From Euborellia annulipes (taxonomy: Eukaryota; Arthropoda; Insecta; Dermaptera; Anisolabididae): DNA of 64,000 bases. The stretch spans positions 248,001-312,000 of the forward strand of contig JAKCPI010005554.1 in the NCBI GenBank assembly GCA_023213315.1, read 5' to 3'. Shown in pieces: positions 31,085 through 55,590 of this stretch. A program made the position numbers and the translations under genes. The notes under the pieces are model-generated. The model was not told the origin of the DNA. It was given only the letters and a program-made list of their open reading frames with translations, and made no database searches. How positions within the stretch are numbered: position 1 is the first letter of the stretch; every line of letters begins with the position of its first letter.

Positions 31085-31148
31085 TTTGAGAGGAAGGGCA
31101 GAGGCAGCCAAAAAGAAATAATTCTGAAAGCTACCGCAATTTTCCGGA

Positions 31149-31184
31149 GACGTTTCAGTGCATTTATTAGTGCTCCATCATCAG
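31149..31184 (-). ncRNA. Hammerhead-like core, left arm of FB3
   Basis: Minus strand: CTGATGA, TGGAGCA...TGCACT, GAAAC, GTC. It mirrors the right-arm motif and points out of the element. Confidence 0.65.
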
Positions 31185-31425
31185 TCCTTTAATTGTATTT
31201 TATGCTCAGAGTAGTCTATAAATGCTTGATATATACATATGTTTTAAATTGTTGGCAATTGAACATGTATATTGTTGAACTGGCATACAATGTTTAACAA
31301 TGGTCACCACAGAGAGTGAATTATATGATTTGATTCATATTCAGTTCAATTCAACAACATGCATGTTCAATTGTCAACAATTGCATTTAAAGACTAACTT
31401 TGAGCATAAAAAAACAATTAAAGGA

Positions 31426-31461
31426 CTGATGATGGAGCACTAATAAATGCACTGAAACGTC
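31426..31461 (+). ncRNA. Hammerhead-like core, right arm of FB3
   Basis: CTGATGA, stem II GGAGCA/TGCACT (one A-A mismatch), GAAAC, GTC. Stem I pairs as GGA/TCC, then an internal loop, then CAATT/AATTG. That internal loop on stem I is typical of type I hammerheads. Stem III has no proper loop, so activity would need a dimer. Confidence 0.68.
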
Positions 31462-31548
31462 TCCGGAAAATTGTTGTAGCATTCAGAATTATTTCTTTTT
31501 GGCTGCCTCTGTTCTTCCTCTCAAAATTATCTTCACAGCCACCACTTC

Positions 31549-31919
31549 TTAATAATTATTTTCTTATTAAAAACGAGCCGTCCAGTATATTTTTAATAAA
31601 ATTAAAGGAAGATTTATAGAAATGAAGGACAATGCTGAGTATTTATAAACAAAATAAATCTAAAAGCCAGTCCTTTACAAAAAATAAAGGAATAAATATA
31701 ATGTGTGATGCGTACATGAAATAAGTAGTAATAGGGTTAGGAGTAGCATGAGAGTAGTATTGTCAAAGAATGCGAGGGGAGGGGGTTAATTGAATGATTT
31801 TTGTAAATGAGGGGGGGCGCCTCTGATTGCGTGAGCCTCCATGTTGCCTTAGAAGGGGAGGTAAGATAGGGAGGGGAGAGCACGTGGTACCCCCACTGTG
31901 CGTCTAAGCCCCGCCTACC
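31549..31919. other. AT-rich to mixed stretch, no gene seen
   Basis: Purine-rich strips (GGGAGGGG near 31868) lead into the GC-richer island that follows. Confidence 0.5.
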
Positions 31920-32153
31920 GCAAATACCGAGCATGCGTTTTTCACTTGAAATGAGTCGGCTGCTAACTGGCGTTCGTGTGTTCGGCTTGTCTTCAATGCT
32001 GTTGCTGTCATACAGCTTTTAAACGTAGATACTCTCGCGCCCGTGTTGTCTCTGTGCTTCGCGTCGTGGAGAAACGCAAGAATTCTTTGGAGGAGGCAGC
32101 GGTATCTCCGCCGCTTTTATTCAACGACTATCGGAGTTTTAACGGCCACAAGG
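31920..32153 (+). promoter_or_regulatory. CpG-rich island, possible leader exon with donor
   Basis: GC-rich segment with an ATG at 31951 opening only 23 codons, and a second open frame from about 31967 to the donor CACAAG|GTAAAT at 32153/32154 that lacks any ATG. It best fits an untranslated first exon or a promoter-proximal region, such as an upstream start for the gene at 49.6 kb, but no link is shown. Confidence 0.3.
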
Positions 32154-33389
32154 TAAATTGAAACAAAGCCAGCCGAGCTGGGGCAAGAGAGATCCGTATA
32201 GCCTTTGCCCTTCGCTCCCGCCTAATACTATTAATCCCGGCAAGGATATCATTCAGGATATAAGCCATTAGAGCTCATACTCAGCATCAGCCAACTAAAT
32301 AATTGAAAATCGTCTTTCTATTAGATTGAGAACATAATCAACGTTGTAACTTAATCGAGTTAACGGCCCCTGTAAAATTCAAATCAATCAAATCCCCCGA
32401 ATCATTTCAATTAGAAACTTAACACTTTCAACTCCTTAATCTAGGAAAGAGAATTGTAAATTCTTTCTTTGAAAATATTTTAACAATATCTCTTGTTGAA
32501 ATCAGATAAATGAATTTTATTTATTTAATGACATAAAAAATTATTCAAATATTTCTTTATTGTTTTTATGATAAAATTTATATTTTTCTTTTTAATTAAC
32601 TCCGGCTAGACATCTAGCCTTTGCTTTATATAAGGCAATATTTATTTTATTTTGATAGTTTATCGAAAGAATTTTATTTGTTAAAATAACGATATTTCAT
32701 TATATTTATTTATACATGCATTTTTTCTCATGTTAGCGATTTTTCATTGTATATGAAATGAAGGGTTTATTGCTGAGACCGGAGTTGGTTTCGAGGTGCC
32801 AACATCAAGTATAAATTCTGAAATGAGTTCTCTGGTGATTTGGTCAAAGGTCCATTTCATTAGATTTGCAGTTCCCAACTTGAGAGCGTTTCATTTTCAT
32901 TGAATTGTAAACCTTTGAGGAGTGCATTCACGGCAGAGAAACTGAAAATCCAAACGTTAATGAAGTATTTGGAAGTCAGATCCTTTTAAGCTCCAAGTTA
33001 ATTAATTCAGGACACCTCTAATCTTGTGGCATATAAAGCAATAGCCTATAATTTAAATACACTCGGATATGTATACATTTTTATTTAATCAAAATAAATG
33101 AATCGCACACAAATTCCGAAAAGAATCTCATCTCGGGTATTTTACACAAAAAACTGATTTTTTTTTGTTTTTGAAACTTGTTATTAATGTGTTAGACAAT
33201 GTTCTTGCTCATAAAACATCGGTTTCGATGAAAATAAAATTCTATTTTATAAAATTTACCGGATGCGCTCTTTTCGGGTTAAAATATTTTCCAAAAAATT
33301 GTCTCTTCTAATATGCATGTTTTAATTAATTTCAATTTTTTTATTATTATTAAATATTTTGTTTCAAATTATTTACTTTAGAGCAAACC
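32154..33389. other. Unique-looking AT-rich stretch, no gene seen
   Basis: 32160-32300 remains moderately GC-rich; the rest is AT-rich without exons, SINEs or element ends. Confidence 0.5.
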
Positions 33390-33439
33390 TTCTTGCTTCT
33401 GTCCTCGCCTGAATATTCCCGCGGTGCGGGGTCGGCGGA
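33390..33439 (-). mobile_element. SINE-B, 50-bp 5'-truncated copy with TSD
   Basis: Only the tail-proximal 50 bp of SINE-B is present (CCCGCGGTGCGGGGTCGGCG on +). It is bracketed by TACTTTAGAGCAAACC at 33374-33389 and TACTTTAGAGCGAACC at 33440-33455, 15 of 16 matching. It fixes the SINE's 3' end and strand, because LINE-driven copies lose their 5' end. Confidence 0.82.
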
Positions 33440-33455
33440 TACTTTAGAGCGAACC

Positions 33456-34683
33456 AAATTTTTAAATTTTTTATGGTGTAAATTAAAGTTTTAAAAAAAT
33501 GATGATGAAAAATTAGAAATGTCAATTAAGCCTATTTATTTATTTTAAATAAATATAAAAATAAAATACACAGCAAACTATTGAACTACACTATAGAACT
33601 TTTTTAATTTAGCACGTTTTTCCACTAATTAATTTGATAATTATTAATAAAAAAAAGAGATGTAAATTATTATTAATTATTTGGATGTCAAATAAAAATT
33701 TGCGAATTTTTTCTCATTGTTTATCTTGATTAGAGTTAATTTATTTATTGGTTAGTAACCAGCGCGATCCCTTAAGAGCCTTTGGTGTTTGATGAGGCCG
33801 AGAGGGAATTTTTTAGGGAGATGCATCTCAATAGAAGTGCAATTATTCGATTTGTGAACGAACAAAAGAGAAAGATTGCCGGCGGCCAGGGAGATGCTGG
33901 ATCACAGCTTCAGTTTCATTGACAATAGAATTTTCAAATTGGGACAAATTGAGTAGAATATAGAATAATTTTTCAATAGCTTGAGGCTAACTTTACAATA
34001 TAGGTATTAAATTGAGTTTTCTTGTTATTTCACAATGGAAACGCGACTTGCTACTGAAATTTTGCCTAATTGAATTATCTCTGTATTATAATTTAAATAA
34101 AGATTGAAATTTAAATCTTATATTCCATTATACTTTATATAATATACTATCATCATATAAATCAAATATTTTATTATACATAAAATTTCTTTTCTATAAT
34201 TCCCTGACGCAACCAGAGAGGGAGTTTTCAATTTTCTTTAAAAACTTAGAAACATAAAATGTTTTATTATTTACAATGAAAACGCAAAAACTAGTTTTGT
34301 TAGCACAATTAGAATTTTTTTCCTATATTCTAATTGATTATTTTTTTTTTTCTGAAACAGCCTGGAATTCATGTATTAAATAGCAAAAAGAGACAATAGA
34401 TAACAAATTAATATTTTTATTAATTTCTATACATGTAGTAATAATATAATATACTCTCTTATCGTTTTCTTTATTCAAACGCGGATCGGTATTTTCTAAA
34501 ACGTTTTTGCATATCGTATAGAATGGAACATAGAAAGAACATCCATCGATGTCTTAAAAAGATTGATCCATCAGCTATGTTAAAAAACATAGAAGGCGCA
34601 GTTAAAAACATTTCTCTTTTTTCAGTGCTTACATATTTTAATACTTTGCCGAAACTCTCTTCACATCTTAAAGTTAGTATAAA
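33456..34683. other. AT-rich stretch, no gene seen
   Basis: No exon or element recognised. 33755-33910 is slightly GC-richer. Confidence 0.55.
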
Positions 34684-34837
34684 CAGTGGCAGATAAAATC
34701 AAATAGTAAAAATATCCTACTTAAATTCAAGTCACAAAAAAACTGTCTTTGAGTTGTTAGAAATAATATAATCAAAAATTTCATAGAAAGATTAAGTAAG
34801 GGCTCTACATGGTCCCTTACCGCTTAATCCGCCACTG
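34684..34837. mobile_element. Short hAT-like MITE, CAGTGGC family
   Basis: Ends CAGTGGCAGATAAAATC and, reversed, CAGTGGCGGATTAAGCGG. Flanks AGTATAAA and AATATAAA match 7 of 8. 154 bp, non-coding. Confidence 0.6.
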
Positions 34838-35569
34838 AATATAAATTCAATCCGAGAACGCTAAAAGTATTAGACTTGAACTAAATTTATCCACATTCAG
34901 AATAAAGGTTCTTCATAATTTTTATATTTCATTAAAAATAAATTTATTTATTTTCAGTCTTTTTCCGTGAGTTGGTTTTTAAAGTTTGGGGAACATCTTA
35001 TTTCAGGAAGGGGAATCTATTTTAAATGAAATTTTATATTCATTTTCCGTAAGCAAGGAAAGGCTCTACCTTCAAAATATTACTTATGAATTAAAGCATT
35101 TATGCTAATTTATAATATTCTTAAATGTCATTAAATTTTATCAAAAAAAGTTTTTATAATTTTAAAGATGATAAATAACTAAGAGATTTTTTAGAAAAGA
35201 AAATTTATAAATATATTTTTTCAAAATTCAAACCATTTTTATGCCGCGTCCATATTTTTTTAGTGGAGAAATTTATTTTTTTGTTAAAAAAATGGATTAA
35301 ATTTTTTTTTTTTCAATAAATATCTCTTCGCCCAAAGAATGAAAACAAAAAAAAAAAAAAAAAATAATCTCAACAAAATATCAAGAGTTCGTCTTCTGGG
35401 CTTTTTCGGTTAAAATGTTCTTAAAATATTAAAATAATCCCTAGTTTGTTTACAGAATAGAATTAAATTTTATCTCAATTAAATGTTAATTAACGTTAAC
35501 GAATTAAAATGTTTCTCGAATAAAATAAAAAAACTCTCACTATAAAAAATAATATCGTGGAGAAGGTAA
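34838..35569. other. AT-rich stretch, no gene seen
   Basis: Homopolymer-rich; nothing recognised. Confidence 0.55.
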
Positions 35570-36230
35570 GACTTGAATAAAAATTCGGGCCCAGTCTCTT
35601 TATAGTTCCATGTCAACGTTTCAAAGGCTAAACGTCATGCCCATCCTCAGGACTCAAAGCAACAGCTTTATTCTTTCATTAATTAAACACATTATTGGTA
35701 AAATAACTTTGTCAGAAGAACTCTTGCCTCCAACAATCATGGGATGTCATTTGATGGGTTAGACCATCAGGATCAGATCCATACCCAGCAGCTGGCATCC
35801 TTTTAGAGTGTGGACTGTAATTGTCCGTTCCGCTACATGGCACGGTTGTTGAAATCAAGATTTCTACTGACAATCCATGTCCTAAGGATGTGATAAGGAG
35901 GCGACGTGGCTTATCGGATAAGCTGGGGCTTAGTAATACGAGGTAAAATTGTACTCGAGTTCGAACCCGGCTTGCCGCAAAAATTCAACCAAGTCGAGCG
36001 TCTCTACTGGGGCAATGGGAATACAATCCTCTCCAGTTCCAGGCACCTAGGGCCTGAGGGATGGGCATGAACCATTCCTAGAATGTTCCTCTCCAGGGGC
36101 CCTGTACCCGGAGAGGATACGGGGAGCACAATAGATCTATAAAGGTCGCAGTGCAGAGAAGCCCCAGAACATCAAATCAAGGATGTGATAAACTCTGGAA
36201 CGTCGGCATGTATCAGTCAAGTATTAAAAT
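35570..36230. mobile_element. Fold-back-type element with two hammerhead-like ends (FB4), SINE-split
   Basis: Minus-strand motif at 35615-35650 (CTGAGGA ... GAAACGTT) and plus-strand motif starting at 35882 (CTAAGGATGTGATAA, then after the SINE ACTCTGGAACGTCGGCATG). Pairing of ATGTC with GGCAT forms stem I for the right one. About 230 bp of unique sequence separates them. A tRNA-derived SINE sits in stem II of the right motif. Confidence 0.55.
35897..36178 (+). mobile_element. tRNA-derived SINE (type E) with 13-bp TSD
   Basis: A box TGGCTTATCGG (35907-35917) and B box GAGTTCGAACCC (35957-35968) in tRNA register, then a body with TCCCAGGCACC-like words and a conserved-looking end CACAATAGATCTATAAAGG. 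Perfect TSD AAGGATGTGATAA at 35884-35896 and 36179-36191. Likely transcribed by Pol III from its internal promoter when active. Confidence 0.85.
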
Positions 36231-36443
36231 AATTTTTGTTTAAAATTTGAAAAAAATTAGGAGACTAGACGAAAAAATTTCTTTTATATTATTTTTTATT
36301 TAATTTTAAAATGAGAACTGTGGGTCTGTGGGTCATATTATGGAAAGCGGATAGCTTCTTGCTTTCTGAGCGAGATAAGGGGAATGAATCTGCGAATGTT
36401 TCTTTTCTATAATTGTTATCATTTCTACTTATATTTAAATTTA

Positions 36444-36767
36444 AAAATAAGAGGATAAAGGAGCAAGCAGCCAGGTAGTTAGTCTCCACGAAATGAAACC
36501 TCTGTTGAGGAAACATTTTCGGTTTTAATGAAATATAACCATCATCAGTCCATTTATCGAGAGTGTGAGCTCAAATGACAAAGCTCAATGCTCATGTTTT
36601 GTCATTTGAGCTCACATTCTCGATAAATGAACTGATGATGGTTATATTTCATTAAAACCGAAACTGTTTGCTCAACAGAGAGTTTCATTTCGTGGAGACT
36701 AACTACCTGGCTGCTTGCTCCTTTATCCTCTTATTGCTAAATATTACAGCCACTTTATCTCTTCTTC
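36444..36767 (+). mobile_element. Hammerhead fold-back element (FB5)
   Basis: Arms of about 145 bp (AGAGGATAAAGGAGCAAGCA ... GAGCTCAAATGACAAA) around a tiny centre. The tail after the right arm has TTACAGCCAC. Flanks show TAAATTTA at 36436-36443 and 36768-36775, a possible TSD though AT-rich. The 75-aa minus frame lies across the left arm and is not a gene. Confidence 0.75.
36632..36664 (+). ncRNA. Hammerhead-like core, right arm of FB5
   Basis: CTGATGA, stem II GGTT/AACC with an 11-nt loop, GAAAC, but the cleavage-site triplet is shifted (TGT instead of GTY). The left arm (minus strand, about 36508-36541) has GAAAATGTT. Both look partly decayed. Confidence 0.5.
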
Positions 36768-36775
36768 TAAATTTA

Positions 36776-37101
36776 GAAAGTTTATTTGCTTATTAATTTC
36801 TTTCTCTTTGGTGAATTTTTGAATTTATTGAATTAAGGAATTTTATTTTTAGTTTCTTTGTCAGACTCATTCCACAGACACAAAACATCATCCTTTAAGT
36901 AGTCGGAACCATCAGAATACGTAGTCGAAGTTTTCAGCTTACTATAACATGATCCAGAGACTCCTAAATGTTGCCATTGATTTTGATAAAGAAAAGATTA
37001 TTTATTCTATTGCGATAAACAATGGTTCTCCGAAATAATTAATTGACAAACTCTTTTATTATAAAAAGGACTTTGATTGAAAAAATTCTTCTTCCTAGTT
37101 A
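36776..37101. other. AT-rich stretch, no gene seen
   Basis: Nothing recognised. Confidence 0.5.
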
Positions 37102-37305
37102 ATATTCGTTAAATCGCGTTTTACCACTCAAAAGAGAATTGGGAGGTTGCAGCCATAGCAGGCGTCTAGAATTATGACGCATTTCCACTCGTGCTTGCTA
37201 GATGGCGTGCAGTATTTTAAGATCTTTTAGAGTCAATGAAATTTTAATTTCATTAGTATAATAGACGCATGCGAGTATTTGAATATATTCGAATTTTCAC
37301 CAATA
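37102..37305. repeat. Dispersed repeat F, copy 1
   Basis: About 200 bp matching 53350-53540 in the same orientation: GTTAAATCGCGTTTTACC, GGGAGGTTGCAGCC, TAGATGGCGTGCAGTATTTT, CATTAGTATAATAG. Class unknown; both copies end near an ATTCGAATTTTCA tract. Confidence 0.75.
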
Positions 37306-37490
37306 ATATTTGCTCTTTTAACACGAAAATAATAAATATTTATAGAAATCTTCCATTCAATAGAAACACTAATCATAAACTATCCAAAAAATACTAAAAA
37401 CTCATAACATTACGATCTCCCTCTATAATAGGTACAATTTCTCTTGATAACAACAAACTATTATAGTTAGATAAATGGGTTACCGTGTAG

Positions 37491-38894
37491 TAGACATGGG
37501 TGATACTGTATCAATCTGATATTTTGTATCAGGTAGGAAAAAGTAACAGGTACACATAATGGGTACGAGCAAAAAGTATCGGGTATTTAAATATCAAAGT
37601 AAAAATCAGATAACTTATTTATAAAAAAAAATATTTTTTTCATTTCTGCTCTCTTTCTTAAAGCGGAGAAAATAGAAATAATGTATAAGTAATAATTAGA
37701 TTTGTATTTAATTATTATAGGGCCTAGTGAGAAAAGTAGAGTAAAAAATCTAAAAATGATTCGGAATGACGTTCGAAAAGAGCGCCAGAGCAAAACGAAA
37801 TTGCCCTGTCACGAGAGAAGAGGCGGGGCGGAGCGTCGCGAGTTGAGGGTCGCAAGAGAGAAGGAATGAGAGAAAAGGAGAAATGAAAACTGTATCGGGT
37901 AACTGTATCGACGCTCTAAAGTGAAAAGCAAGTATTTGATCAATGCGCAAGCGCGAGAATAAGGTATGAGTGAGAAACAGATACGCGTCCTGTCCAGGTC
38001 CAGTCGAGTATGCCCGAGTTGTTGATACTCATATAACAGATACAACAAGTATCTCTTATTTGCTCGGTATTCGTTTCTCACTCGTACCTGATATCTCGCG
38101 CTTGCGCATTGATCAAATACTTTAGAGTGTCGTTTCTTTCTTACCCGATACAGTTTTCGTTGCGCCTGTCCCAGGCCTGCTCTCTCTTTCCTCTCTTGAA
38201 ACCCTCAACTCGCGACGCCCCGCCCCGTCCCTTCTCTCCTGGCACGGCTATTTCGCTATTGCGCTGGCGCGCTTTTCGAACGTCATTCCGAATGATTTTT
38301 ACATTTTTTACTCTACTTTTCTCACTAGGCCCTATAATAATTAAATACAAATCTAATTATTACTATTACATTATTTATCTTTTCTTCTCTTTGAAAAAGA
38401 GAGCAGAAATGAAAAAAATCTTTTTTTTTTTTAATAAATAAGTTATCTGATTTTTTACTTTGAAACTATTTTTTTTTTTATAAAAACATTAATTAAAAAA
38501 ATAAAAATATATGTAACTGTGAATTGAAATACATAATGGACTTCAATAAATTAAATTTCGTTCGCTGGTAAAGAAATTTCTTAATTATTTTTCTAGTGCA
38601 GTATATAAATTGACATTTTAAATTTGGAGACATTAAAATGTCAGTTCAGTCAGTTTGGAAAACTCTTTAGTAATGGATAATTATGAGTTTGTTCTCAACA
38701 CAAGAATAAATAGCGTAGAAAACATTTGAAAAAATGTTAAACACGTTGTTATTGACTTGAATTAATGTAAAGTTAGCGTTGCTGGGTGAAATTTATTTCG
38801 GGTACAAAAGTATCAGGTAAAAGTATCGGGTCAGAACTAGTACCTGTAACAGCTGGTACCTGGTACAGCAAAATCGAGTAACGACCCATGTCTA
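37491..38894. mobile_element. hAT-type element with a large internal palindrome
   Basis: TIR TAGACATGGGT at both ends; perfect 8-bp TSD CCGTGTAG at 37483-37490 and 38895-38902. Inside, about 350-bp inverted arms (37610-37960 and 38090-38455) share ATAACTTATTTATAA, GGGCCTAGTGAGAAAAGTAG and TATCGGGTA words. No transposase frame; the 70-110-codon frames are arm products. Non-autonomous, fold-back style. Confidence 0.85.
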
Positions 38895-39650
38895 CCGTGT
38901 AGAGCAGAGGTGGCCAACCCGCGACCCACCTTGAACATTTTTGCGCCTCGTGAAATTCATCACACATTTACAAAATACAGTATATTTATTTTATTGAAGA
39001 GATAAAGACAGCCAAAGCAAAATAAAGAAAAGAAAATTTTTTTTGCTTTGTTGAACAACAATAGCGACGTTTTGGCCAATTATTCCGGCCTTCGTCGGGA
39101 CATGTCTTTTGTTTGCCTCGAGCATAGAGGGGCTCTTGGCAGCTCCTGGCATAAGTGCGATAGGTACTCCTTGAAATATATTTATTTTATATTTTTTTAC
39201 AGCAAAAAAATGTCTATAGTAGGTTTAGAACTAATATGAAGATATATAATTTTATATGCAGCCCGCTGAGTTATGATTAGGGATGTGGTATCGAAAAAAA
39301 GTATCGATACTTGTACTTGGTATCGTATCGAAAGGAAAGTATCGAGTATTTTTTTAGTATGACTATTAAAACAAAATCTTTTCGGCATTTTAGGTCTTTT
39401 ATATTTTGGGAAACGTTGAGTTCCCCTTTTATGCTTATCCTTTTTTTTTCATATCATATATTCTTCCTGGCTGCATGTGACCACTGGTCATTATAGGTCT
39501 TCGGACATTATGCACCCATTCCAAAAAAAAAAAAAATACTTTAAACGATACCGGTACTTATTATTAAATTACGATATACAGTATATTGCGGTCCCGGCAT
39601 ATTTATTTTTACCATTTGGTAATCAAATGAGTATTTTAGAAAATAGTAAA

Positions 39651-39867
39651 CGAATTTGATTTTCGGTTTAACTGTGGTTTATTTGTAAAAATTACAACGT
39701 TTCGGCCAGTCATTCTGTGGCCTTCTTCAGGTACAATTCAGCTAAGATTATAAAGGTTGTCTTAGCTGAATTGTACTCTGAAGAAGGCCACCAAATGAGT
39801 GGCCGAGATGTTGTAATTTTTACAAATAAACGACAGTTAAACCGAAAATCAAATTCTTTCACTAATG
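39651..39867. mobile_element. Hammerhead fold-back (FB6) inside a hAT
   Basis: Arms of about 100 bp: GAATTTGATTTTCGGTTTAA ... AGCTAAGA mirrored, spacer about 14 bp. The left arm (minus strand) keeps an intact-looking core; the right arm has GAGATGTT instead of GAAACGTT. A single-arm relative is at 44028-44100. Confidence 0.75.
39696..39730 (-). ncRNA. Hammerhead-like core, left arm of FB6
   Basis: Minus strand: CTGAAGA, stem II GGCCA/TGGCC, GAAAC, GTT. Position 7 of the core is free to vary, so CTGAAGA is allowed. Stem I is weak (GTAC with GTA-). Confidence 0.55.
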
Positions 39868-40008
39868 ATAACAACTGTGAAAGCCTAAACTCCAAAATTA
39901 TAGAAAATATATTTTCATTTATTTAATTATTCAACATAAATTGTTGAAAAGTACATAGGTAAAATATGTAAATACAAAAATCTCTATATTCTAATAAACT
40001 ATTCTAAC

Positions 40009-40250
40009 CACGCACATAGCAAAGGGGGTGGGAGCTCGAGAAGCTTCAGCCCCCCCCCCTCCGAAATATTTTTTTAAACTTGGCTCTGAAATTTTCTTAC
40101 ATTAGAATGATATTTACGGTATTGACAGAGCTTTGATATGGTTTGTTTGTTGTTAAAAATGAATGTCATTGAACAAAGTTATAGAGACCCCCCCATAATT
40201 CCCAAAATTTCTAAGCCCCCCCCCTCCGAAAAAATCCTTCTACGGGCCTG
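40009..40250. mobile_element. hAT-like element, third nesting level
   Basis: Ends CACGCACATAGCAAAGG and, reversed, CAGGCCCGTAGAAGGA. Perfect TSD ATTCTAAC at 40001-40008 and 40251-40258. Subterminal C8/C9 runs followed by TCCGAA on both sides. 242 bp. Confidence 0.78.
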
Positions 40251-40701
40251 ATTCTAACAGAGAGTTTCCATATCCTGTATTCGAAATTCATTTAATAACA
40301 AATAACATAAATTGAGAACATTATTTATAAGGTAATAATCAAATTCTAATTGAGATAAATTTATTTAAATCATTTGAATACCAAATGGTATAAATAAATC
40401 GTGGCCGAATAATTTTTATCGTAATATATAGCCAAATTTCTGTATTGTTTAAAGTCTATATGGCCTAAGATGTCGAAAAGACTTAAAATACTTGAATGAG
40501 TACTTTTCATTCGATACTGGCAATCAAGTACTCATATGAGTAAAGTATTGAAAAAAGAAGGCCTAACGAGTAAAAAAAGTACTAGTATCGAAACAAAAGT
40601 ATCGATACTAGTAAGTGTCGATACTTTTTCGTGTCCCTAGTTATGATGCCTTTCCAAAGTGGCACGCAAGATCATGTGGGTTGGCCATCCTTGGTGTAGA
40701 G

Positions 40702-43436: not shown

Positions 43437-44027
43437 CTTCTTTGAATCACTCACGATAGATCAGACATATAGTACTGCGTGAAATTTGTATTTCGAGCAT
43501 TTCAAATGAACACATCACGCCATATTATGAGAGGGTGGAATGGATGAGATTGGTGCAGAAGAAATTTGAAATCCACGGCGTTTTCTTGCACTTGCTCTTT
43601 AAAAGTGAGAAACCGTGTTTTGTATTGGGGGAATCTGAGTGCGAGTTAGACCTCTACAAGACGCCTGGACAATGCCCATTCATAGAACTAATACAAACGG
43701 TGATCGTTCCATGTGAGTCCCTTCGAATTTCCAGACTATAAGAAGCAGGGAGAAGTTTAAGAACGAATTGGGGCGGTTTCTTTTGGAGGGTTAGATGTTT
43801 CACTTATACCATTTTAATAATAATTCAGTAAACAAAGTGTATCTACTATTGTGTTGTATGAAATCAGACATACTATGCATTGGAATATTGTAAAATGTTC
43901 AAAGAGATCAAAATTCTTTCATTCATACATTAATAACTCTCATCCGTCCAAATTCCTTTTGAAAAATACAAGAAGAAAGTGTTCCGAATGTGAGTGAATC
44001 TGCATTTATAAGTATACTTGAAGAAGG
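43437..44027. other. Unique-looking stretch, no gene assigned
   Basis: 43500-43800 is less AT-rich and non-repetitive, with a 67-codon frame ending 43741 (CFVLGESECELDLYKTPG). No splice acceptor/donor pair fits well and no domain is recognised. It could be an orphan exon, a pseudogene piece or conserved non-coding sequence. Confidence 0.4.
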
Positions 44028-44130: not shown

Positions 44131-44507
44131 AAATAAAAAAAACTCTTCTTACACATTAAAAGTCCCAATGTAAGTTTAGATTCTATAAACATATTTTTTT
44201 ATAAGCACTTGTCTGCTGTTTGCTAATTTTTGTTTACAAACTTTTTTTGGTTCTAAATTCCGAAATCATTGCCATGTTTGAGACATCTCAACGTGCATAT
44301 TAGTCTCTACTTTGTATGTCTCAGCAAAGTAAAGACTAATATGCACGTTGAGATGTCTCTAACATGGCAATGATTTCGGAATTTAGAACCAAAAAAAGTT
44401 TGTAAACAAAAATTAGCAAACAGCAGACAAGTGCTTATAAAAAATATGTTTATAGAATCTAAACTTACATTGGGACTTTTAATGTGTAAGAAGAGTTTTT
44501 TTTTTTT
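44131..44507. repeat. Near-perfect long palindrome, about 184-bp arms
   Basis: Left arm 44131-44314 and right arm 44325-44507 are almost exact reverse complements (CTCTTCTTACACATTAAAAG ... CTACTTTG), with a spacer of about 10 bp (TATGTCTCAG). A transcript would form a long double-stranded hairpin. The 78- and 89-codon minus frames come from its arms. No hammerhead core inside. Confidence 0.85.
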
Positions 44508-45733
44508 AATTCTCCTCTTATATATAAAATCATAATTTATCAAATCAAATAAATTATGATTAAATATTAAATAGAAAAAATAATGTGATTGTTTTTTAAG
44601 CTTAGATATCTAATAAAGCATTAAATTAAATTTGTTTGAATATGATAGCTGACCAATGATTCATTTAGAGAGGTACCTAAATAATAGGTTCAGGTGTAGA
44701 AAACAACCGAAAGAGAAAGACAGTCTGTTTTCGATTAGTCTGAAGGCAGCTGTGCTATATCTGGCTTACTCCACTCATCGAATTAACATTCATAAAGAGA
44801 GACGAGGAGGCCCATCAAGCTCTTAACAAGACATAAGAAGCTTTTAATAGAGTGACATCATCCGAATGGCAAAGGTCGCGTGCCCAACTCACAAACAGCC
44901 TCCAAAATTCTGTGCATCTTCTTTTCCACATTGTTGGAATTTCGCATTTGCCGCCTGATCTGCCATCTTGAATACGCCATAACAGGTGAATCCCAATTTT
45001 CATCACCCGGACAATAGAAATAAACAGAACTTAATTGTCTGTTCAGTTAAGTTGGATGAGATTATGTCGCTTAATAAATCAAATTAACTCTCCAAGGACG
45101 GCCGATTGCTGATGTCTCTTTCCAATAACAAGAATCATGGATCGGGTTTGCCTCTTAAAATTTAATTAAATTAGTTGACTGGAGGTACGCAAATATTTGC
45201 CTTAAATACACACGACAAGCAGACGCAGAGCAGCCTGGACACTTTCAAAGGGATTTAGAAATAATAAACAGTTAATTAAAGGTAAATAAACTCTGCTAAA
45301 ATTTGATTAAAAATAAAAAAAAAAAAAAAAGATAAAAACGAAAACGCTTTCGTTTAATATTTATTTATTAGTTGATAAATTCGGCGGCTTGCAAGGAAAT
45401 CATGAATAGGTCCTAAGCGTATTTTTTTTAAACAATGGTTTGATCAAAATGGGTATTGAAAATACACATTTTGAAATCGGTGTCCAAAATGGTGGCCATA
45501 AATAAATAAAGAAAACAACTACAACCTTTTTAATAAATTTATTAGAAAAGAATTTTACAAATCTGTAACAAGCACATCTCCAAGCTTTTCTTCAGAGATC
45601 TCTATGGAAATGAGGAAGCGATAGACACCATTTATGTGTTCTGATGAAGGTGGGAACACACCACCGAAACTTATTCTCATTAACAAAGGCTAGGGGTGAA
45701 AGGATATTTTTGGCTTGTCGAAACACTAATATC
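44508..45733. other. Unique-looking stretch, no gene seen
   Basis: 44690-45260 is GC-richer and non-repetitive, a candidate conserved non-coding region. Near 45641 is a lone CTGATGA + stem GGTGG/CCACC + GAAAC motif without an inverted partner or GTY, a decayed hammerhead candidate. Confidence 0.45.
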
Positions 45734-46343: not shown

Positions 46344-46404
46344 GGTTGCCTAAGCTCAAGGCTCCACTCTTTAGGACATCAGGTACTTGTGGCGCCGACT
46401 GTAT
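46344..46404. repeat. 60-bp direct repeat flanking the piggyBac, left
   Basis: GGTTGCCTAAGCTCAAGG ... GGCGCCGACTGTAT matches 47839-47899 in the same orientation at about 85 percent by eye. The two copies bracket the piggyBac but are not its TSD. Confidence 0.8.
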
Positions 46405-46409
46405 ATTAA

Positions 46410-47819: not shown

Positions 47820-47838
47820 TTAAGACAACACTTTTGAC

Positions 47839-47899
47839 GGTTGCCTAAGCTCAGGGTTTTACTCTTTAGGATATCAGGCACTTATGGCGCTGACTGTAC
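47839..47899. repeat. 60-bp direct repeat flanking the piggyBac, right
   Basis: GGTTGCCTAAGCTCAGGG ... GGCGCTGACTGTAC; partner of 46344-46404. Confidence 0.8.
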
Positions 47900-48838
47900 A
47901 GACAGACACAGTTTTGGTTCTAGTCAACTATAAACAGCAAGTTTTTTCCTACCTTTATATTTAATATTGAATATTTACTTAAGTGTATAAAGGTAGTAAA
48001 AGGTAATTTTTTAATGTTTAAATAAAAAAAATTTAGCGGTGGCAAAAATACCATAAGCCAATGATTAGTTAAATAAATAAATAAAAAAGATTTTCATTCG
48101 TTTCATTTTTTCTCTTTTTTTTTTGTTTTAATCGATAAAATCATTTCCGTTCTTATATCTAGTTCTTTTTCCGATATTAAAGAATGAGTCACCTGAGTAT
48201 TAAGGAGATAAAATTGTGTTAAAGATTTAATAAAAGGAAATAGCAATTTTCTAATTAATATTTGCTTCATCAAACAACCGAAAAAGATAGGGGTACCCCG
48301 GGTTTTCCCTATTTATACTATAAAAAATCTTGGTTCTCTTTTTTTTTTTCTCGGGGATTTCCAATTTTACTCGCGGCACCGGTGGGCCCCCTTTTTTCCG
48401 CTCGTTGTAATAAATAATAATTATTTTAATTATTTTTTCTCCTTGATATATATTATATTTTATTTAGATTTTAAAAATTTTTGGCGAGAATAATTAATAA
48501 TAGATTGAAATCAAAGATAAATCCTATTTTTTCTATCACTTTTTATTTTCAAAAATACAATACTACGCATATTTTTACTTTCTCTTACCCTATATATGAA
48601 ATATATAGAGAGAGAAAGTATTGCGATCATGTCCAAAATTCGATGTCAAGATTTTTGTAATTTGGAAATGAAAAGTGCGGAAAAAAATAGGGGTATTTTT
48701 TTTTTTAATTTTTTTCTTTATTTAATTTATTTTAAGTGAAACAATGAAATCCACTTCTTTTTTTGGATTAACCTTTTTTAGTGATATTTAAGATATTTAA
48801 ACCAAGGTCCTTGAAAGTTTTTTTTGAAACCCATACAG
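47900..48838. other. AT-rich stretch with a family A head fragment
   Basis: 48572-48655 is the family A start (TTTTTACTTTCTCTTACC ... TTGCGATCATGTCC), then unrelated AT-rich sequence. Nothing else recognised. Confidence 0.6.
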
Positions 48839-49069
48839 CAGCGTTTCCCAAAGTGTGGGTCACGACTCGGTACCGGAACATAGGTAAATTTTGCCGGGTC
48901 GCAAAAAAAAAAAAAAAAATTTATTTTTGCAATTTTTATGTATAGAATAAACAAACTCGATTTTTATTACAAAATAATAAAATTTGTTTTGTAAATATAT
49001 GTTTTTTTTTTCATAATGCAGTGCTCGAAAAATTTTAAAACCTCGTTCAAAAAGGTTTGGGAAACTCTG
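48839..49069. mobile_element. Short hAT-type element, CAGNGTTTCCCAAA family
   Basis: Ends CAGCGTTTCCCAAAGTGTGG and, reversed, CAGAGTTTCCCAAACC. Flanks CCATACAG and TTATACAG match 6 of 8. This terminal sequence is a common hAT signature. 231 bp, no coding capacity. Confidence 0.7.
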
Positions 49070-49077
49070 TTATACAG

Positions 49078-49520
49078 AATCATTAATTAAATTGCTAAAG
49101 CCATTATTGTAGAATAATATGGGTTTTTTCGAAATTTACAAACAGTGTTTCTTATAATAAAATACCGTAAAATTATACAATTTTTCAAATGAAATTCATT
49201 TTTACCCTTTATATGAAAAATAAAAAAGAGAAAAAGGTTTGTTTACTATTTTTTTATTTTTTGGGAATAAATTCCCTTTCGTTCACGGGATTGGTATAAA
49301 ATTTAGTCCAGGTCAGGTCTGGAGACAAATTATTATTGTTGAGTTGCAAAAGATATTATTCACATCCGTAATTTTTTTAAACCACTCGATGTTTCATTAA
49401 TCATCAAATATATTTTCTTTTAAAATAATTTTTGAAACTAGATTCAATTTATTAATAGTATATTTTAAAATTGTTTTATTAAAAAAAAAAAGAAAGGGAT
49501 ATTTGTTGCAAAGTTGAGAT
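49078..49520. other. AT-rich stretch upstream of Drgx leader, no gene seen
   Basis: No element ends recognised. The composition shifts to GC-rich near 49520, marking the start of the Drgx 5' region. Confidence 0.5.
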
Positions 49521-49645
49521 AACGAGCAGAGAGCAGGGCGCATGACACGGAAGATGCTGAATGCGGCCGGGTTCAGTTTCGTCTAGCAACCCCAACCCTA
49601 TCCTCACCTCTTGCTCGTTCGTGAATCTCTTATGCAAATCTGCAG
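49521..49645 (+). promoter_or_regulatory. Drgx: Drgx promoter-proximal region and likely 5' untranslated exon
   Basis: GC-rich island directly upstream of the coding exon. An arthropod-type initiator TTCAGTTTC lies at 49572-49580 (possible start A at 49575); no TATA box. The segment ends at a strong donor CTGCAG|GTGAGG at 49645/49646. The only upstream ATG-initiated frames are short. An octamer ATGCAAAT (49632-49639), a POU-factor site, lies just before the donor. The exon call is inference from the donor and the acceptor that follows. Confidence 0.5.
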
Positions 49646-49964
49646 GTGAGGCTGCTGTCGCCTTTTCGACTTAATAGGACCTTTCGAACAAATATCTTAC
49701 CTAAAACGAGCCCAATGCGATGAAAGCCAGTTAACAAACTGCTTACCAAAGGTGGCAGCTTATTTGCATAATTTAAGATTTTCAATAAACTTCATTGAAC
49801 ATAAATACTAACAATTGACTTTTTCTAATATCCTTTTTGATTTCTGGAACTTTTATTTTTGCCAATGAGAGAAATAAATACCTTTTATTTTTGATAGACA
49901 CATATGTTTATGTCTGATTTTAAGTTTCCTGGCTGGGTGACCCGCTGACCGATTGTTTTTACAG
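49646..49964 (+). other. Drgx: Drgx intron 1 (319 bp)
   Basis: GTGAGG at the start; TTGTTTTTACAG at the end. The first about 60 bp is GC-rich, then AT-rich, like a normal short intron. Confidence 0.5.
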
Positions 49965-50073
49965 ATCGCGGGCCACAGGGGGATGTTCTGCTATCATTGC
50001 CCGCCGACGCTACACCCGTCGACGGCGCCTCGACTACCCTCACTCGACTACCCCTTTACACCCACGCATCCCT
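49965..50073 (+). CDS. Drgx: First coding exon of a Drgx-like paired-class homeobox gene
   Basis: Drgx is a nuclear DNA-binding transcription factor; the vertebrate version specifies sensory and spinal neurons. The exon follows the acceptor GATTGTTTTTACAG; ATG is at 49983 after 18 nt of leader, and the frame runs 30 codons plus one base to the donor CATCCCT|GTAAGT. It starts MFCYHCPP, very close to the MFYFHCPP start of vertebrate DRGX, continues PRLPSLDYPF and ends THP with a leftover T, so the next codon could be Tyr (HPY). This N terminus precedes the homeodomain in the family. The homeodomain and OAR exons are not visible in the following 14 kb, so intron 2 is probably long and packed with transposons. 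GC content is far above its surroundings, as expected for a conserved exon. Assignment rests on the short N-terminal signature and splice structure, not on the homeodomain. Confidence 0.72.
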
Positions 50074-50272
50074 GTAAGTAGCCTACCTCTGATATTTATA
50101 ATACTTTCAAATTTTATTTCATCTTGAATAGATTAAATGAAAATACAAAAAGTAAATATGACTTACTCTGTAGAATATAATCGCTCTAATATTTTAGAGC
50201 AGGGGTGGCTAAGCTCGTCTTGAACATTTTTCCGGCCCGCGGATTCATCACAGAAACAAATATCACAAATAG

Positions 50273-50826
50273 TTTTACTTTCTCTTACCCTATATATGAA
50301 TTATATAGAGAAAGTATTGAGATCATGTCAAAAATTCGATGTCGAGATTTTGATAGATACACGTTTTGAAGTCTCCTGAGTCCAAAAAAGTGGGTCCCGC
50401 AAATTGATCTGTCTGTCTGTCTGTGTGTAACGATTTTTAGCATGAAGGAATTGAGCTACCGGATTGAAATTATATATTTAAGTTAGGTACTTTCCCGGAC
50501 AATCAAAATCAGCTTTTAAACAAAATCGGCTAAAAAGTACTAGTACTTTGCTGATGTACTTTTCAGTTTTTTTTTTTTTTTTTTTTTTTTTTTCGATTTT
50601 CTCAAAATTTGTTTTAACGATTTTGATTGATATTCAAAAATCAATCATTTTTTAGATTCTCTTTCAAATGTATATTCTCATTTTGAGATCAAAATTGTTT
50701 GAAGCACACTTTACTCTTGTACTTCATAGGAAAAAAAATCTGGTGTGACTGGCGCACAGCACACAACTTTCTCTTACCCTTCGGTAAGAGAAAGTTGTGC
50801 ACTGTGCTGGTCACACCAGATTTTTT
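50273..50826 (+). mobile_element. Family A copy sharing its tail with an inverted copy
   Basis: Start hairpin, TCGATGTCGAGATTTTGAT, AGTACTAGTAC module and poly-T, then directly from TACTCTTGTACTTCATAGG into the terminal palindrome at 50733-50826. The CATGGTAAC block is missing. The palindrome also ends the reverse copy that follows. Confidence 0.8.
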
Positions 50827-51737
50827 GTGTCGAGATATATTTAGTTTCCCATAGCACCTTAGTTTCAAACTTGCATTTTAAATGTTGATTGCTTGAAATA
50901 AACTATGGTTATTTTTCAAAATTTTAATCTCATATTTGGACATTTTATACACAATATAGAATCGTAAATAAATACAAAATTTCATAAGAATTCGAAAAAA
51001 AAATTTTAAATGCGTAAAAAGTTCCAAAGGGGACTCCCTTTTGAATCGAAATTAACATACAAATCCCTATAGGAAATTAACATTGGCCAAATGCGAAGAT
51101 AAGGTAGAAAAATTTAAAACGCGTAGAAAGAGAGAAGATAGTTTTGTGAGAGAGAGAGATATGTTTTCTCCGAAAAAAAATGGGCGTTTAAATAATAATT
51201 GATTTTTAATCTAATAAAAAGAAAAAGATTTAAATTCGGTTACCATGGCAACCATTTATTTCTCCTATCTTTCCTATGAAGCACAAGAGTAAAGTGTGCT
51301 TCAAACAATTTTGAGGGCAAAACGAGAATATACATTTGAAAGAGCATCTAAAAAATAATTGATTTTTGAATTTTAATCAAAATCGTTAGAGCGAATTTTG
51401 AGAAAATCGAAAAAAACTGAAAAAGTACATCAGTAAAGTACTAGTACTTTTTGGCCGATTTTGATTAAAAGCTTATTTTGTCGGTCCCGGGGGGTGTTTA
51501 ACTTAAATATAAAATTTCAGCCTCCTAGCTCAATTCCTTCATGCTTAAAATTGAACACACACAGACACACAGACAGACAGACAGACAGACAGACCATGTC
51601 GCGAAAACCACTTTTTTGGATTCAGGGGACCTCAAAACGTGAAGATCCATCAAAATCTCGACATCGAATTTTTGACATGAAACCAATACTTTCTCTCTAT
51701 ATATATATTACATATATACATAGGTAAGAGAAAGTAA
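50736..51737 (-). mobile_element. Family A, long form, minus strand
   Basis: A mirror of 52001-53028: palindrome, TGTCGAGATATATTTAG, the 400-bp extra block with GAGAGAGAGATATG, TTACCATGGCAACC, AGTACTAGTAC module, GACAGACAGACAGACAGACA microsatellite and the start hairpin at 51737. Very close to its partner by eye, so recent. Confidence 0.87.
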
Positions 51738-51847
51738 TAGGAGAAATGGTGGACATGTTAACAAAATATAAAAAATTTTTCCATCTTTATAAAAAAACAG
51801 AAAATGAAAAAATTCCATCTTTTTCAAACAAAGCTCTACTTAGTTAA

Positions 51848-52140
51848 TAGGGGTATTCATGATCTTGCGTTTTGACCTAAATATCCTAAATCGTAAACAG
51901 TTTAGCACAAAAGTTAACGAACGGACCAAAAATAAATTTGTCCTATGTCGTATTTGATGACTATCGGTGAGATCGAACAACATTCATAACCTACTAAGTC
52001 TTTTTACTTTCTCGTACCCTATATATGAAATATATAGAGAGAGAAAGTATTGGTTTCATGTCAAAAATTCGATGTCGAGATTTTGATGGATCTTCACGTT
52101 TTGAGGTCCCCTGAATCCAAAAAGTGGTTTTCGCGACATG

Positions 52141-52206
<66 letters not shown>

Positions 52207-53346
52207 TCAATTTTAAGCATGAAGGAATTGAGCTAGGAGGCTGAAATTTTATATTTAAGTTAAACACCCCCCGGGACCGACAAAATAAGCTTTTAATCAA
52301 AATCGGCCAAAAAGTACTAGTACTTTACTGATGTACTTTTTCAGTTTTTTTCGATTTTCTCAAAATTCGCTCTAACGATTTTGATTAAAATTCAAAAATC
52401 AATTATTTTTTAGATGCTCTTTCAAATGTATATTCTCGTTTTGCCCTCAAAATTGTTTGAAGCACACTTTACTCTTGTGCTTCATAGGAAAGATAGGAGA
52501 AATAAATGGTTGCCATGGTAACCGAATTTAAATCTTTTTCTTTTTATTAGATTAAAAATCAATTATTATTTAAACGCCCATTTTTTTTTTCGGAGAAAAC
52601 ATATCTCTCTCTCTCACAAAACTATCTTCTCTCTTTCTACGCGTTTTAAATTTTTCTACCTTATCTTCGCATTTGACCAATGTTAATTTCCTATAGGGAT
52701 TTGTATGTTAATTTCGATTCAAAAGGGGGTCCCCTTTAGAACTTTTTAGGCATTTAAAATTTTTTTTCCAATTCTTATGAAATTTTGTATTTATTTACGA
52801 TTCTATATTGTGTATAAAATGTCCAAATATGAGATTAAAATTTTGAAAAATAACCATAGTTTATTTCAAGCAATCAACATTTAAAATGCAAGTTTGAAAC
52901 TAAGGTGCTATCGGAAACTAAATATATCTCGACACAAAAAATCTGGTGTGACCAGCACAGTGCGCAACTTTCTCTTACCGAAGGGTAAGAGAAAGTTGTG
53001 TGCTGTGCGCCAGTCACACCAGATTTTTCTTTTTAAAATTCTCTCACATATCTCATTCATTTTTATTTAAAAAATAAATAAATAAGAGAAACAAACAAAA
53101 CAACACACTAAACACTTGAAAACAAAACACAAACTGCACAAACACTTTTTAGGTTAGAAAAACTTTGACATTTCTAATGGCGGAAATCGATTTACAACAT
53201 ACGACACCGATATAAGAGACCTGTGGCCGTCGTATGTACTATTTAGCAATACGAGAGGTAAATGCCGTATATCGTATACTCAAATAAGACATAGGAGACT
53301 TTTAAGACGATAGGACGTCGTATATACAAGATCATGAATACCCCTA
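51848..53346. mobile_element. TIR element hosting a family A copy
   Basis: TIR TAGGGGTATTCATGATCTTG at the left and its reverse complement at 53327-53346. Own sequence is 51848-52000 and about 53029-53346, with repeated GTCGTAT/TATCGT words. TSD not clear (AT-rich flanks), so the superfamily is left open. Confidence 0.75.
52001..53028 (+). mobile_element. Family A, long form, plus strand
   Basis: Complete from start hairpin (52003-52050) to terminal palindrome (about 52938-53028), with a (CTGT)n(GT)n microsatellite at 52141-52205. It forms a 1-kb inverted pair with 50736-51737 across a 263-bp spacer. Confidence 0.87.
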
Positions 53347-53349
53347 ATA

Positions 53350-53540
53350 TTTGTTAAATCGCGTTTTACCTCTCTTGGGAGGTTGCAGCCCTAGCAGGCG
53401 CCTAGAATTGTGAAGCAGTTCCAATCGTGCTTACTAGATGGCGTGCAGTATTTTAAGATCTTTTCGAATCAATGAAATTTTAATTTCATTAGTATAATAG
53501 GCGGATGCGAGATGTTTGAATACATTCGAATTTTCATTTT
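53350..53540. repeat. Dispersed repeat F, copy 2
   Basis: Matches 37102-37305 (see there), with a small deletion after TTTTACCTCTC. Confidence 0.75.
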
Positions 53541-53645
53541 TTTTTGTTGATAATTGAAGTGGCTGTCCAGCGATTAGAATGATGAAGGAAGAGAGGATGT
53601 CAGTCAAAAAAGAAGCCTCATTCGAATAAAAATCTCCAATTAGAA

Positions 53646-53681
53646 GACGTTTCGGGTTTAATTAGATAAAACCATCATCAG
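53646..53681 (-). ncRNA. Hammerhead-like core, left arm of FB7
   Basis: Minus strand: CTGATGA, GGTTT/AAACC stem II, C, GAAAC, GTC. Same as the right arm; every core base matches consensus. Confidence 0.7.
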
Positions 53682-54079
53682 TTCTTTAGAGCTGAAATGA
53701 GCATAAATAATAATTGTAATACAACAACATAAAATATTTTTTAAAATTATAAAAAACACAGATCTTACATTATTGGCAATCTCAAGGTGTACACCATTGA
53801 GATGCAGATAGAGTTGTTATACATAAACGTATACAAAATTATATAAAAATACAAAATTTGCATATCAGTTGTCAGATGCTCACCAGTCAACACGGCCAAG
53901 TCTCAAATGTATATAAAATTTAATTATCAAATACAGTTATTATAAGATAAATACTGGGGAAGCAATGAAATGATCTCTGATGTTTTTTATAATTTTAAAT
54001 GATGTTTTTTATAATTTTAAAAAATATTTTATGTTGTTGTATTACAATTATTATTTATGCTCATTTCAGCTCTAAAGAA

Positions 54080-54115
54080 CTGATGATGGTTTTATCTAAT
54101 TAAACCCGAAACGTC
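54080..54115 (+). ncRNA. Hammerhead-like core, right arm of FB7
   Basis: CTGATGA, stem II GGTTT/AAACC (9-nt loop), GAAAC, GTC: a full consensus core. Stem I: GAA/TTC next to the core, an internal loop, then CTCT/GGAG. Stem III is only the minimal A-U/C-G step. Confidence 0.72.
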
Positions 54116-54402
54116 TTCTAATTGGAGATTTTTATTCGATAGAGGCTCCTTTTTTGGCTGACATCCTCTCTTCTTTCATTTTTTTTTTTTTTATATTTAA
54201 TCTTTAGTCTTACAGTGTGCGTTAGTATCAATATTATTATAATATCTATGTTTAGAAACACTATAATAATACATTATGTTTCAATTTTTCACCCCATAAA
54301 AATGTGTATAGATGGTCTAAATCTAATATGGGGATATCTAATTTTATATGCGGCCCGAGGAGTTATGATGCATTTAAGTAGTCCGCAAGATCATTTGGGT
54401 TG

Positions 54403-55155
54403 TAGAACTTCGGTGCTTATTCCTTTTTATTTAAAAGAAGTCCTTTTCGTTAGGCAACCAAATAAACATCTCTGCATATGTGTTATCTATTAGTAAGGGG
54501 TTTCGATTTTTTTGTTTTGTTTATCCATTGGAAATAATTATTTTTTTTTAGTTTTGCGATAACCCAATTCAAGGGCATATCTCATATTTCTGTTGTTTAT
54601 GCTATGGTTAGTTCTGTTTGAAAAAAAAGCACAAACTTTTCCACAACTTTGATACGGTTCTCCACATTTATTTTCAAGTGCCTACTTATTTATCATAGAG
54701 GGGTTGTTATTAGTTTCATTCTTTAGCATTTCGAATATCGAACCAAAGCATGTGTTTGTGAGCACACACGTGCCGTGTGCCTGTCACGCTTTTTGCTTCT
54801 GCGATACTTTGTCATTATGATGAAACTTGTTAATTCTTTCAACTCTCGTTTCTCATAAGTTTTTGAGCTCAATTACACTTAATTTAACGATATTCTACTT
54901 TACAGATTTTTTTTTTTTAATTTCTTTGAATTGATATGACTGATTTAGCCCTATGTCTGATACAATTCATCTGATTCGATTTTTGACAAGTAACAAAGTT
55001 TTAAAAGAAATAAAAAAATTTAAATAAATCAATTTATTTCATCATAAATATTTTTTAACGGTAAAGGCTACAGTGATTGGCCCTTACGGCTTAAAACCAA
55101 TAAAATAAGAAATATAATGAATAAATGAGTTTTGAAAAAAATAAAACATGTAAAT
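54403..55155. other. AT-rich stretch, no gene seen
   Basis: Nothing recognised. Confidence 0.5.
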
Positions 55156-55237
55156 AACGTGGCATTTATTAATGTGATATGGAGGACAGCAGTCAGATAG
55201 GTAGCCCCTATTTAATAAAACAGACTCCTTTTAACAA

Positions 55238-55429
55238 AACGTTTCGGCTAAATTTATTACGCCATCTTCAGTTGTTCCCATAAGTTCCCATAAGACTCTT
55301 TAACGTTTCGGCTAAATTTATTACGCCATCTTCAGTTGTTCCCATAAGTTCCCATAAGACTCTTTAACGTTTCGGCTAAATTTATTACGCCATCTTCAGT
55401 TGTTCCCATAAGTTCCCATAAGACTCTTT
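55238..55429 (-). repeat. Three tandem 64-bp hammerhead-bearing units in FB8
   Basis: Units begin at 55238, 55302 and 55366 and are identical by eye. Minus-strand cores at 55238-55271, 55302-55335 and 55366-55399 read CTGAAGA, GGC/GCC stem II, GAAAC, GTT. Only the first has a neighbouring stem I partner (AACAA/TTGTT). Confidence 0.85.
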
Positions 55430-55434
55430 AACAA

Positions 55435-55468
55435 CTGAAGATGGCGTAATAAATTTAGCCGAAACGTT
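55435..55468 (+). ncRNA. Hammerhead-like core, right arm of FB8
   Basis: CTGAAGA, stem II GGC/GCC with a 12-nt loop, GAAAC, GTT. Stem I is strong: TTAACAA (55428-55434) with TTGTTAA (55469-55475), 7 perfect bp, extended by GACTC (55422) with GAGTC (55479). The best-paired stem I in the window. Confidence 0.72.
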
Positions 55469-55590
55469 TTGTTAAAAGGAGTCTGTTTTATTTATTATTT
55501 ATTTTAAATAGAGGCTACCTATCTGGCTGCTGTCCTCCATATCACACTAATTGACATCTCACAGCCACATTCCATCAACGTGGCATTTAT

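Follow-up and report, generated by a model that had tools for sequence, protein, structure and literature searches.

Hammerhead-bearing fold-backs of Euborellia annulipes as probable head-to-head insertions of Penelope-like element 3' ends

The window analysed here, 64,000 nucleotides (nt) of the Euborellia annulipes assembly GCA_023213315.1 (contig JAKCPI010005554.1, positions 248,001 to 312,000), contains eight loci, FB1 to FB8, annotated as short fold-backs with hammerhead ribozyme cores in one or both arms. A first-pass annotation had taken these loci for a self-contained class of fold-back elements made only of two ribozyme ends. Our analysis indicates instead that they are the 3' ends (pseudo-long terminal repeats, pseudo-LTRs) of Penelope-like elements (PLEs) inserted head to head, and not a new class of ribozyme ends. 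With a probability of about 0.78, each fold-back results from one retrotransposition event of a PLE, in which reverse transcription was primed at two ends and the complementary DNAs (cDNAs) were joined. The way in which Penelope elements insert is unsettled, as is the reason for the frequent occurrence of their copies in inverted pairs; a large set of short insertions that show their two ends, the joint and the target duplication makes this a matter of counting.

Searched with the core pattern CTGANGAN{6,36}GAAAC, the window gave 12 matches to CTGANGA...GAAAC, against 0.66 expected, and none of 100 shuffles reached 12. On a wider reading cores were found in FB1, FB3 (two), FB4, FB5 (two), FB6 (two, one decayed), FB7 (two) and FB8 (four), and lone cores outside the earlier list at 45641 (+) and, decayed, at 44018 (+). 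The inverted repeats of FB2, FB3, FB5, FB6, FB7 and FB8 were listed by the repeat-finding tool and the arms of FB1 were identified by reading the sequence. Thus, of the eight loci annotated as fold-backs with cores, FB3, FB5, FB6, FB7 and FB8 stand as described and FB1 stands with one changed core base, but FB2 has no intact core and FB4 no inverted partner. The cores share a layout of CTGANGA, an extra A or T, GG...CC, GAAAC, GTC or GTT, and the second strand of stem I; such an extra base after CTGANGA is known from a viroid hammerhead.

Stem I of at least 3 base pairs (bp) in the exact hammerhead register was formed in six of nine cores, which 60 of 100,000 re-pairings matched, and the pairing was confined to the predicted register; it was absent in register at cores 44018 and 45641. 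For stem II, 25 of the 36 pairs at positions 3-6 were formed (2 of 100,000 re-pairings were as good) and the stem varied with compensation; the stem II strings were entered by hand, that of FB3 coming from copy L010 and that of FB7 being shortened by one C, and in the strict register of the stem I test FB3, FB4 and 44018 scored 0 and FB7 scored 2. In an alignment of eight cores 77.5% of the cells were paired, compared with 18.8-52.5% in slid versions, and stems I and II covaried across families, with 21 two-sided cells that none of 500 shuffles equalled; one of the five measures, the number of pairs with two-sided change, was unexceptional (50 of 500 shuffles). The annotation had named an Rfam search and covariation as checks on its hammerhead reading. 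The former gave no support, with no match in the window at the gathering threshold and no hammerhead among 18 matches at E<=10, and the latter, together with the register-exact stem I, bore the architecture out. Sub-threshold Rfam microRNA matches at these loci were set aside as hairpins of the inverted repeats. A model built from the window cores recovers those cores by construction, and it also detects cores in Penelope 3' regions that were left out of model building. Deviations from the consensus include UUGAUGA in FB1 and a one-base shift needed in FB5. By the pattern, register and covariation tests the features of a type I hammerhead (CUGANGA, GAAA, NUH, stems I and II) are present, and, to judge from their sequence, the window cores genuinely have hammerhead form, with self-cleavage as a prediction.

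The construction of the fold-backs was followed in family copies from the 903-Mb genome assembly, where a first look gave 1013 to 2395 candidates per family, most of them unscored. The FB3 unit of 273 nt was taken from copy L010, and both arms were mapped in 36 loci. In each outward-facing pair one arm extends to unit position 273 and the other in most cases to 239-259, and the 5' limits vary by locus from position 1 to 220. The same picture was obtained for FB8, with a unit of 275 nt, and for FB7, where the 5' limits extend into the coding region. Both orientations were present in 31 of 40 listed FB8 regions and 33 of 38 listed FB3 regions (hand count), and an abutting inverted partner was found in 18 of 29 loci of the FB7 family. 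The outer ends are unequal: in 47 of 49 loci a tail is present on one arm while the second arm falls 14-42 nt short, and none of the 49 has two tails. Exactly one tail was counted in 12 of 12 FB8 loci (drawn from 31 two-armed regions), 10 of 10 FB7 loci and 25 of 27 FB3 loci, with no tail at all in L004 and L017; an arm at most 9 nt short was scored as having a tail and one at least 14 nt short as lacking it, and the FB3 second copies L011, L023, L024 and L058, loci L063, L065 and L084, and eight FB7 loci with a missing outer end were excluded. The longer arm can be either one (12 vs 8 in FB3, 6 vs 3 in FB7).

Among 64 two-armed loci, 40 had a word of at least 9 bp in common between their flanks, compared with 176 of 4032 mismatched pairs of flanks, duplicate loci included, and the clear target-site duplications (TSDs) measure 12-16 bp. 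In the window itself FB8 is flanked by a duplication of 14 bp and FB7 by a T-rich word of the same length. The insertions end 90 nt (FB3), 96 nt (FB8) and 106 nt (FB7) past the predicted cleavage site, so the ribozymes are not the ends of the elements, as had been supposed. In the mapped families we find an optional 3' tail, an inverted pseudo-LTR and a TSD, and the cited passages of PMC8969392 and PMC3846280 treat inverted pseudo-LTRs and short 3' extensions as standard PLE features. Because the junctions differ between insertions, the fold-back would mostly be made anew each time; the palindrome thus appears as a product of insertion and the fold-back mostly as an insertion footprint. Hammerheads would occur in both arms because each arm copies the same RNA region.

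Coding parents were found for two families. In the FB7 family a Penelope protein match lies upstream of the arm, on the sense strand, in 24 of 30 loci (one being the source of the query), and in oriented loci the family matches extend upstream into a frame with reverse transcriptase (RT) and GIY-YIG-like motifs. The frame of L051 contains YLQYVDDS and VYVGQT and is 90% identical to P0003, which is also 90% identical to the family frame P0001 and matches RVT_1 with 39.9 bits (cut-off 29.6); P0001 itself has no Pfam match. A relative at 32% identity, P0004, matches GIY-YIG with 25.5 bits (cut-off 22.6). An RVT_1 match in L044 was ruled out as the RT of FB7, since P0001 does not match L044. In L040 the N-terminal part of a Penelope frame follows the hammerhead, and pseudo-LTRs with the minimal hammerhead, also in tandem with an open reading frame (ORF), were found among family copies. 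The FB5 arm is 96-98% identical to the sequence behind the 854-amino-acid (aa) frame of contig C25128. By these matches FB7 and FB5 are short forms of Penelope elements with coding copies in the same genome, which upholds the annotated relation to Penelope and speaks against a self-contained fold-back class.

The search for a parent had a different outcome for FB3 and FB8, where no sense-strand match was obtained in 36 FB3 and 17 FB8 loci, with flanks of at most 1.5 kb (about 100 nt for L069-L080), an absence that is weak because the flanks were short. On the loci retrieved, both may be non-autonomous. Parents of FB1, FB4 and FB6 were not found in the sequence examined. A protein search of the genome gave 4332 Penelope candidates, of which 113 were scored, many with open frames of 600-858 aa; all 13 close ORF pairs among those scored point away from each other, and a hammerhead-like core was present in four of four retrieved 3' regions of other, more distant Penelope copies. 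The close pairs consist of long Penelope frames, head to head and a few kb apart, and lie in G000 contigs C10557, C25128, C25164, C373 and others.

We propose that a minimal type I hammerhead, which lacks a real helix III, is followed in the RNA after about 50 nt by a GGCTG...CAGCC hairpin that would act as the RT start. The Penelope RT/GIY-YIG protein would make a staggered cut in the target, offset by about 12-16 bp, and a cDNA would be primed on each cut target strand, one from the distal start, giving the tail, and the other from the proximal start, giving none. Both cDNAs would run toward the 5' end of the RNA, halt anywhere and then become joined, leaving two outward-facing copies of the same 3' part of the RNA with a hammerhead in each. 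When both halt inside the pseudo-LTR a short fold-back would result (FB5, FB7), and the source of FB3 and FB8 would be short, perhaps non-autonomous units whose 5' end is fixed. Target-primed reverse transcription from two ends in this way would explain why the arms point outward, why there are TSDs, why the ends are unequal and why the joints vary. The tail-less end lies in a loop bordered by TGGCTG and CAGCCA, and the GGCTG...CAGCC helix was present in the minimum-energy folds of L010, FB5 and FB8 (three of nine stretches folded).

The closest biochemical parallel is the PAc element of Anolis (PMC11167929), whose protein cuts and extends both target strands, starting inside an AC-rich stem loop, and whose tail corresponds to the interval separating two RT start sites. 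A hammerhead followed by an RT-start stem loop, two start sites, a tail between them and cutting and extension of both strands are thus common to the two systems. The Anolis stem loop lies 111-118 nt into the ORF and the cut at +26, so that the distance is about 85-92 nt, compared with the 90-106 nt given above. Head-to-head products such as those at our loci are not discussed in the main text on PAc, and the hammerhead is dispensable for insertion in vitro in that system (PMC11167929). We would go further only tentatively, and at less than even odds, to suppose that two RTs, probably a Penelope dimer, copy one RNA from both start sites, one per cut strand, so as to leave one tail per two-ended insertion, and that the ORF-less FB3/FB8 units of 273-275 nt, composed of hammerhead and start hairpin, are palindrome-forming Penelope parasites resembling short interspersed nuclear elements. 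That each insertion should have strictly one tail can be tested, as a specific prediction, in the existing in vitro Penelope system.

The divergence between arms bears on whether one template or two were used. In the FB7 family the arms differ by 0.0095 within a locus vs 0.0157 between loci (17 loci; 0 of 20,000 permutations), and in older FB3 copies (nine loci) the arms within a locus are also closer (0 of 5000 permutations), for which subfamily structure can be the cause. In young FB3 copies (15 loci) arms within a locus are hardly closer than between loci (0.0161 vs 0.0179; 477 of 5000 permutations). The FB7 arms in the window, 0.0279 apart, are an exception to the family trend, 14 of the 16 other loci being closer and most pairings less different. 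Among FB7 arm variants 64 occur in one arm only vs 19 shared. Since arms within a locus are mostly closer than arms between loci, both would usually come from the same source, which is compatible with one or two molecules.

Several observations weigh against two-ended priming with joined cDNAs. No partner was seen for 11 of 29 FB7-family loci in the sequence examined, and in the tail count the thresholds were set post hoc and loci were omitted if their outer end was out of view. The start hairpin is missing from the minimum-energy folds of the window copies of FB3, FB7, FB1 and FB6, and L092 has GGCTG with no CAGCC seen in the retrieved sequence. GIY-YIG in the FB7 family itself (L043) reaches 18.7 bits, below the Pfam cut-off of 22.6. 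The top and bottom strands of PAc show no difference in RT start site (PMC11167929), and the similarity of arms within FB7-family loci is also predicted by snap-back self-priming.

In that last alternative a single cDNA (or antisense RNA) bends back at its end and primes its own copying, and the hairpin is then inserted. Palindromes at the inverted junction led to its proposal for the Penelope elements of Adineta (cited passages of PMC3846280), and the 5' end of the FB8 unit indeed lies in a palindrome-like stretch, GAAATTTCGAAATTTC (L081). Self-priming accounts for the joint but not for the fixed tail-less end: it gives no grounds to expect a constant end point for the second arm, which in typical FB8 and FB7 copies falls 21-36 nt short of the tail, nor that either arm may be the longer, nor the extra letters between the arms (gaps of 9-16 in L007, L010, L015 and L057, to which BLAST trimming adds), and the window FB7 arms are unlike each other. 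We regard it as unlikely. Far less probable is that the palindrome itself is inherited and mobile, whether in the way that the first-pass annotation held or as a DNA transposon with terminal inverted repeats. The top matches of FB3 and FB5 are mostly entire palindromes with common outer ends, which is in its favour, but the junctions vary in position between insertions, the outer ends are unequal with a tail on one side, and FB5 and FB7 arms stand behind Penelope frames; for the DNA transposon in particular, the one-sided tail and varying junctions contradict matching termini and a kept palindrome. That the cores are an ordinary repeat motif resembling a hammerhead by chance is barely credible, for the missing Rfam match and the decay of several cores are outweighed by the register-exact stem I, the covarying stems and the hammerheads reported in PLE terminal repeats (cited passages of PMC7761336 and PMC6155905).

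Among described elements, the Adineta vaga Penelope elements share with two-ended PLE insertions of the present kind the head-to-head arrangement of pseudo-LTRs, of which a single one has a tail and the inverted one is shorter, together with the TSD, junction palindromes and solo pseudo-LTRs (cited passages of PMC3846280), and the annotated view that no description of such a structure was known is not upheld. Most copies described in those passages have an ORF, whereas here many ORF-less two-armed loci occur in several families; hammerheads and the tail rule were counted here, and the word 'Hammerhead' is absent from the text of PMC3846280. Metazoan non-LTR retrozymes are likewise short and non-coding, with a type I hammerhead, and are thought to use PLE machinery, but consist of direct tandem repeats with a fuller hammerhead (cited passages of PMC7229834 and PMC7761336), whereas our arms are inverted and helix III is missing. 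A retrozyme was rejected on these grounds, since the unit is not repeated directly in tandem; in FB8 the three 64-bp direct units lie inside a single arm. Short nonautonomous Penelope elements of Heliconius are also numerous ORF-less derivatives, with structure and ribozymes not described in the cited passages (PMC6685494). Three points appear to be new in the open literature searched: the counting of the one-tail rule, the large number of two-armed copies that have no ORF, and the possibility that FB3 and FB8 are non-autonomous units.

Table 1. Fold-back loci, hammerhead cores and associated features in the window
Feature	Position	Strand	Remarks
FB1 fold-back	11181..11400	.	core in right arm only
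FB1 hammerhead core	11311..11340	+	TTGATGA in place of CTGATGA, GAAAC; stem I 8 bp
FB2 inverted repeat	21966..22184	.	cores at background, model E 0.11 and 0.52; flanks with repeated 12-bp word
FB3 head-to-head pair of 273-nt unit	31088..31551	.	right arm has tail; core in each arm
FB3 hammerhead core, left arm	31152..31184	-	
FB3 hammerhead core, right arm	31426..31458	+	
FB3 presumed RT-start hairpin GGCTG...CAGCC	31501..31540	+	folds in copy L010, not in window copy
FB4 hammerhead core	35618..35650	-	no inverted partner found within window
FB5 fold-back	36439..36742	.	arm is 3' region of Penelope element with 854-aa open frame (G000:C25128)
FB5 hammerhead core, left arm	36516..36548	-	ends GAAAA
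FB5 hammerhead core, right arm	36632..36664	+	
FB6 fold-back	39644..39864	.	left core intact, right core decayed (GAGAT)
FB6 hammerhead core	39699..39730	-	
FB7 head-to-head pair of 5'-truncated Penelope 3' ends (427 and 180 nt)	53545..54179	.	left arm has tail
FB7 hammerhead core, left arm	53649..53681	-	
FB7 hammerhead core, right arm	54080..54112	+	
FB8 head-to-head pair of 275-nt unit	55170..55576	.	right arm has tail
FB8 left target-site duplication	55156..55169	+	14 bp, AACGTGGCATTTAT
FB8 right target-site duplication	55577..55590	+	14 bp
FB8 left arm, three tandem 64-bp units with hammerhead cores	55238..55432	-	units perfect
FB8 hammerhead core, right arm	55435..55465	+	stem I 8 bp
FB8 hairpin GGCTG...CAGCC, right arm and tail	55525..55566	+	

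In FB8 the joint of the 64-bp repeat falls directly after GAAACGTT, the predicted cleavage site, and is followed by a reversed piece of upstream sequence, and the array looks like the outcome of template switching. The idea that part of the FB8 stem I was derived from the junction was dropped, CTCTTTAACAA being native upstream of the core in copy L081. Tandem arrays stand between the two arms of an FB3 copy (L055, 855-2330, about 117 bp) and of an FB5 copy (L086, 538-1433, about 83 bp). In L062 (2497-3181) the FB3 arms are separated by a piece, at most about 0.7 kb long, that is shared with L004, L061 and L068 (400-690 bp there), stands alone elsewhere and is taken for a captured or nested repeat.

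The lone core at 45641-45670 has a good stem II but neither GUC/GUU nor a stem I in register, and a weak model match at 39056-39108 (-), with E 0.078, is of another core type, CGACGAAGGCC...GGCCAAAACGTCG. A near-perfect palindrome (98-99%) at 44131-44507, about 80 bp from the decayed core 44018, contains no hammerhead, and a further fold-back at 37615-38437, with long arms (blocks of 179 and 65 bp), has no hammerhead match. Nested large inverted repeats, with arms of up to 451 bp at 96%, occupy 50302-53031.

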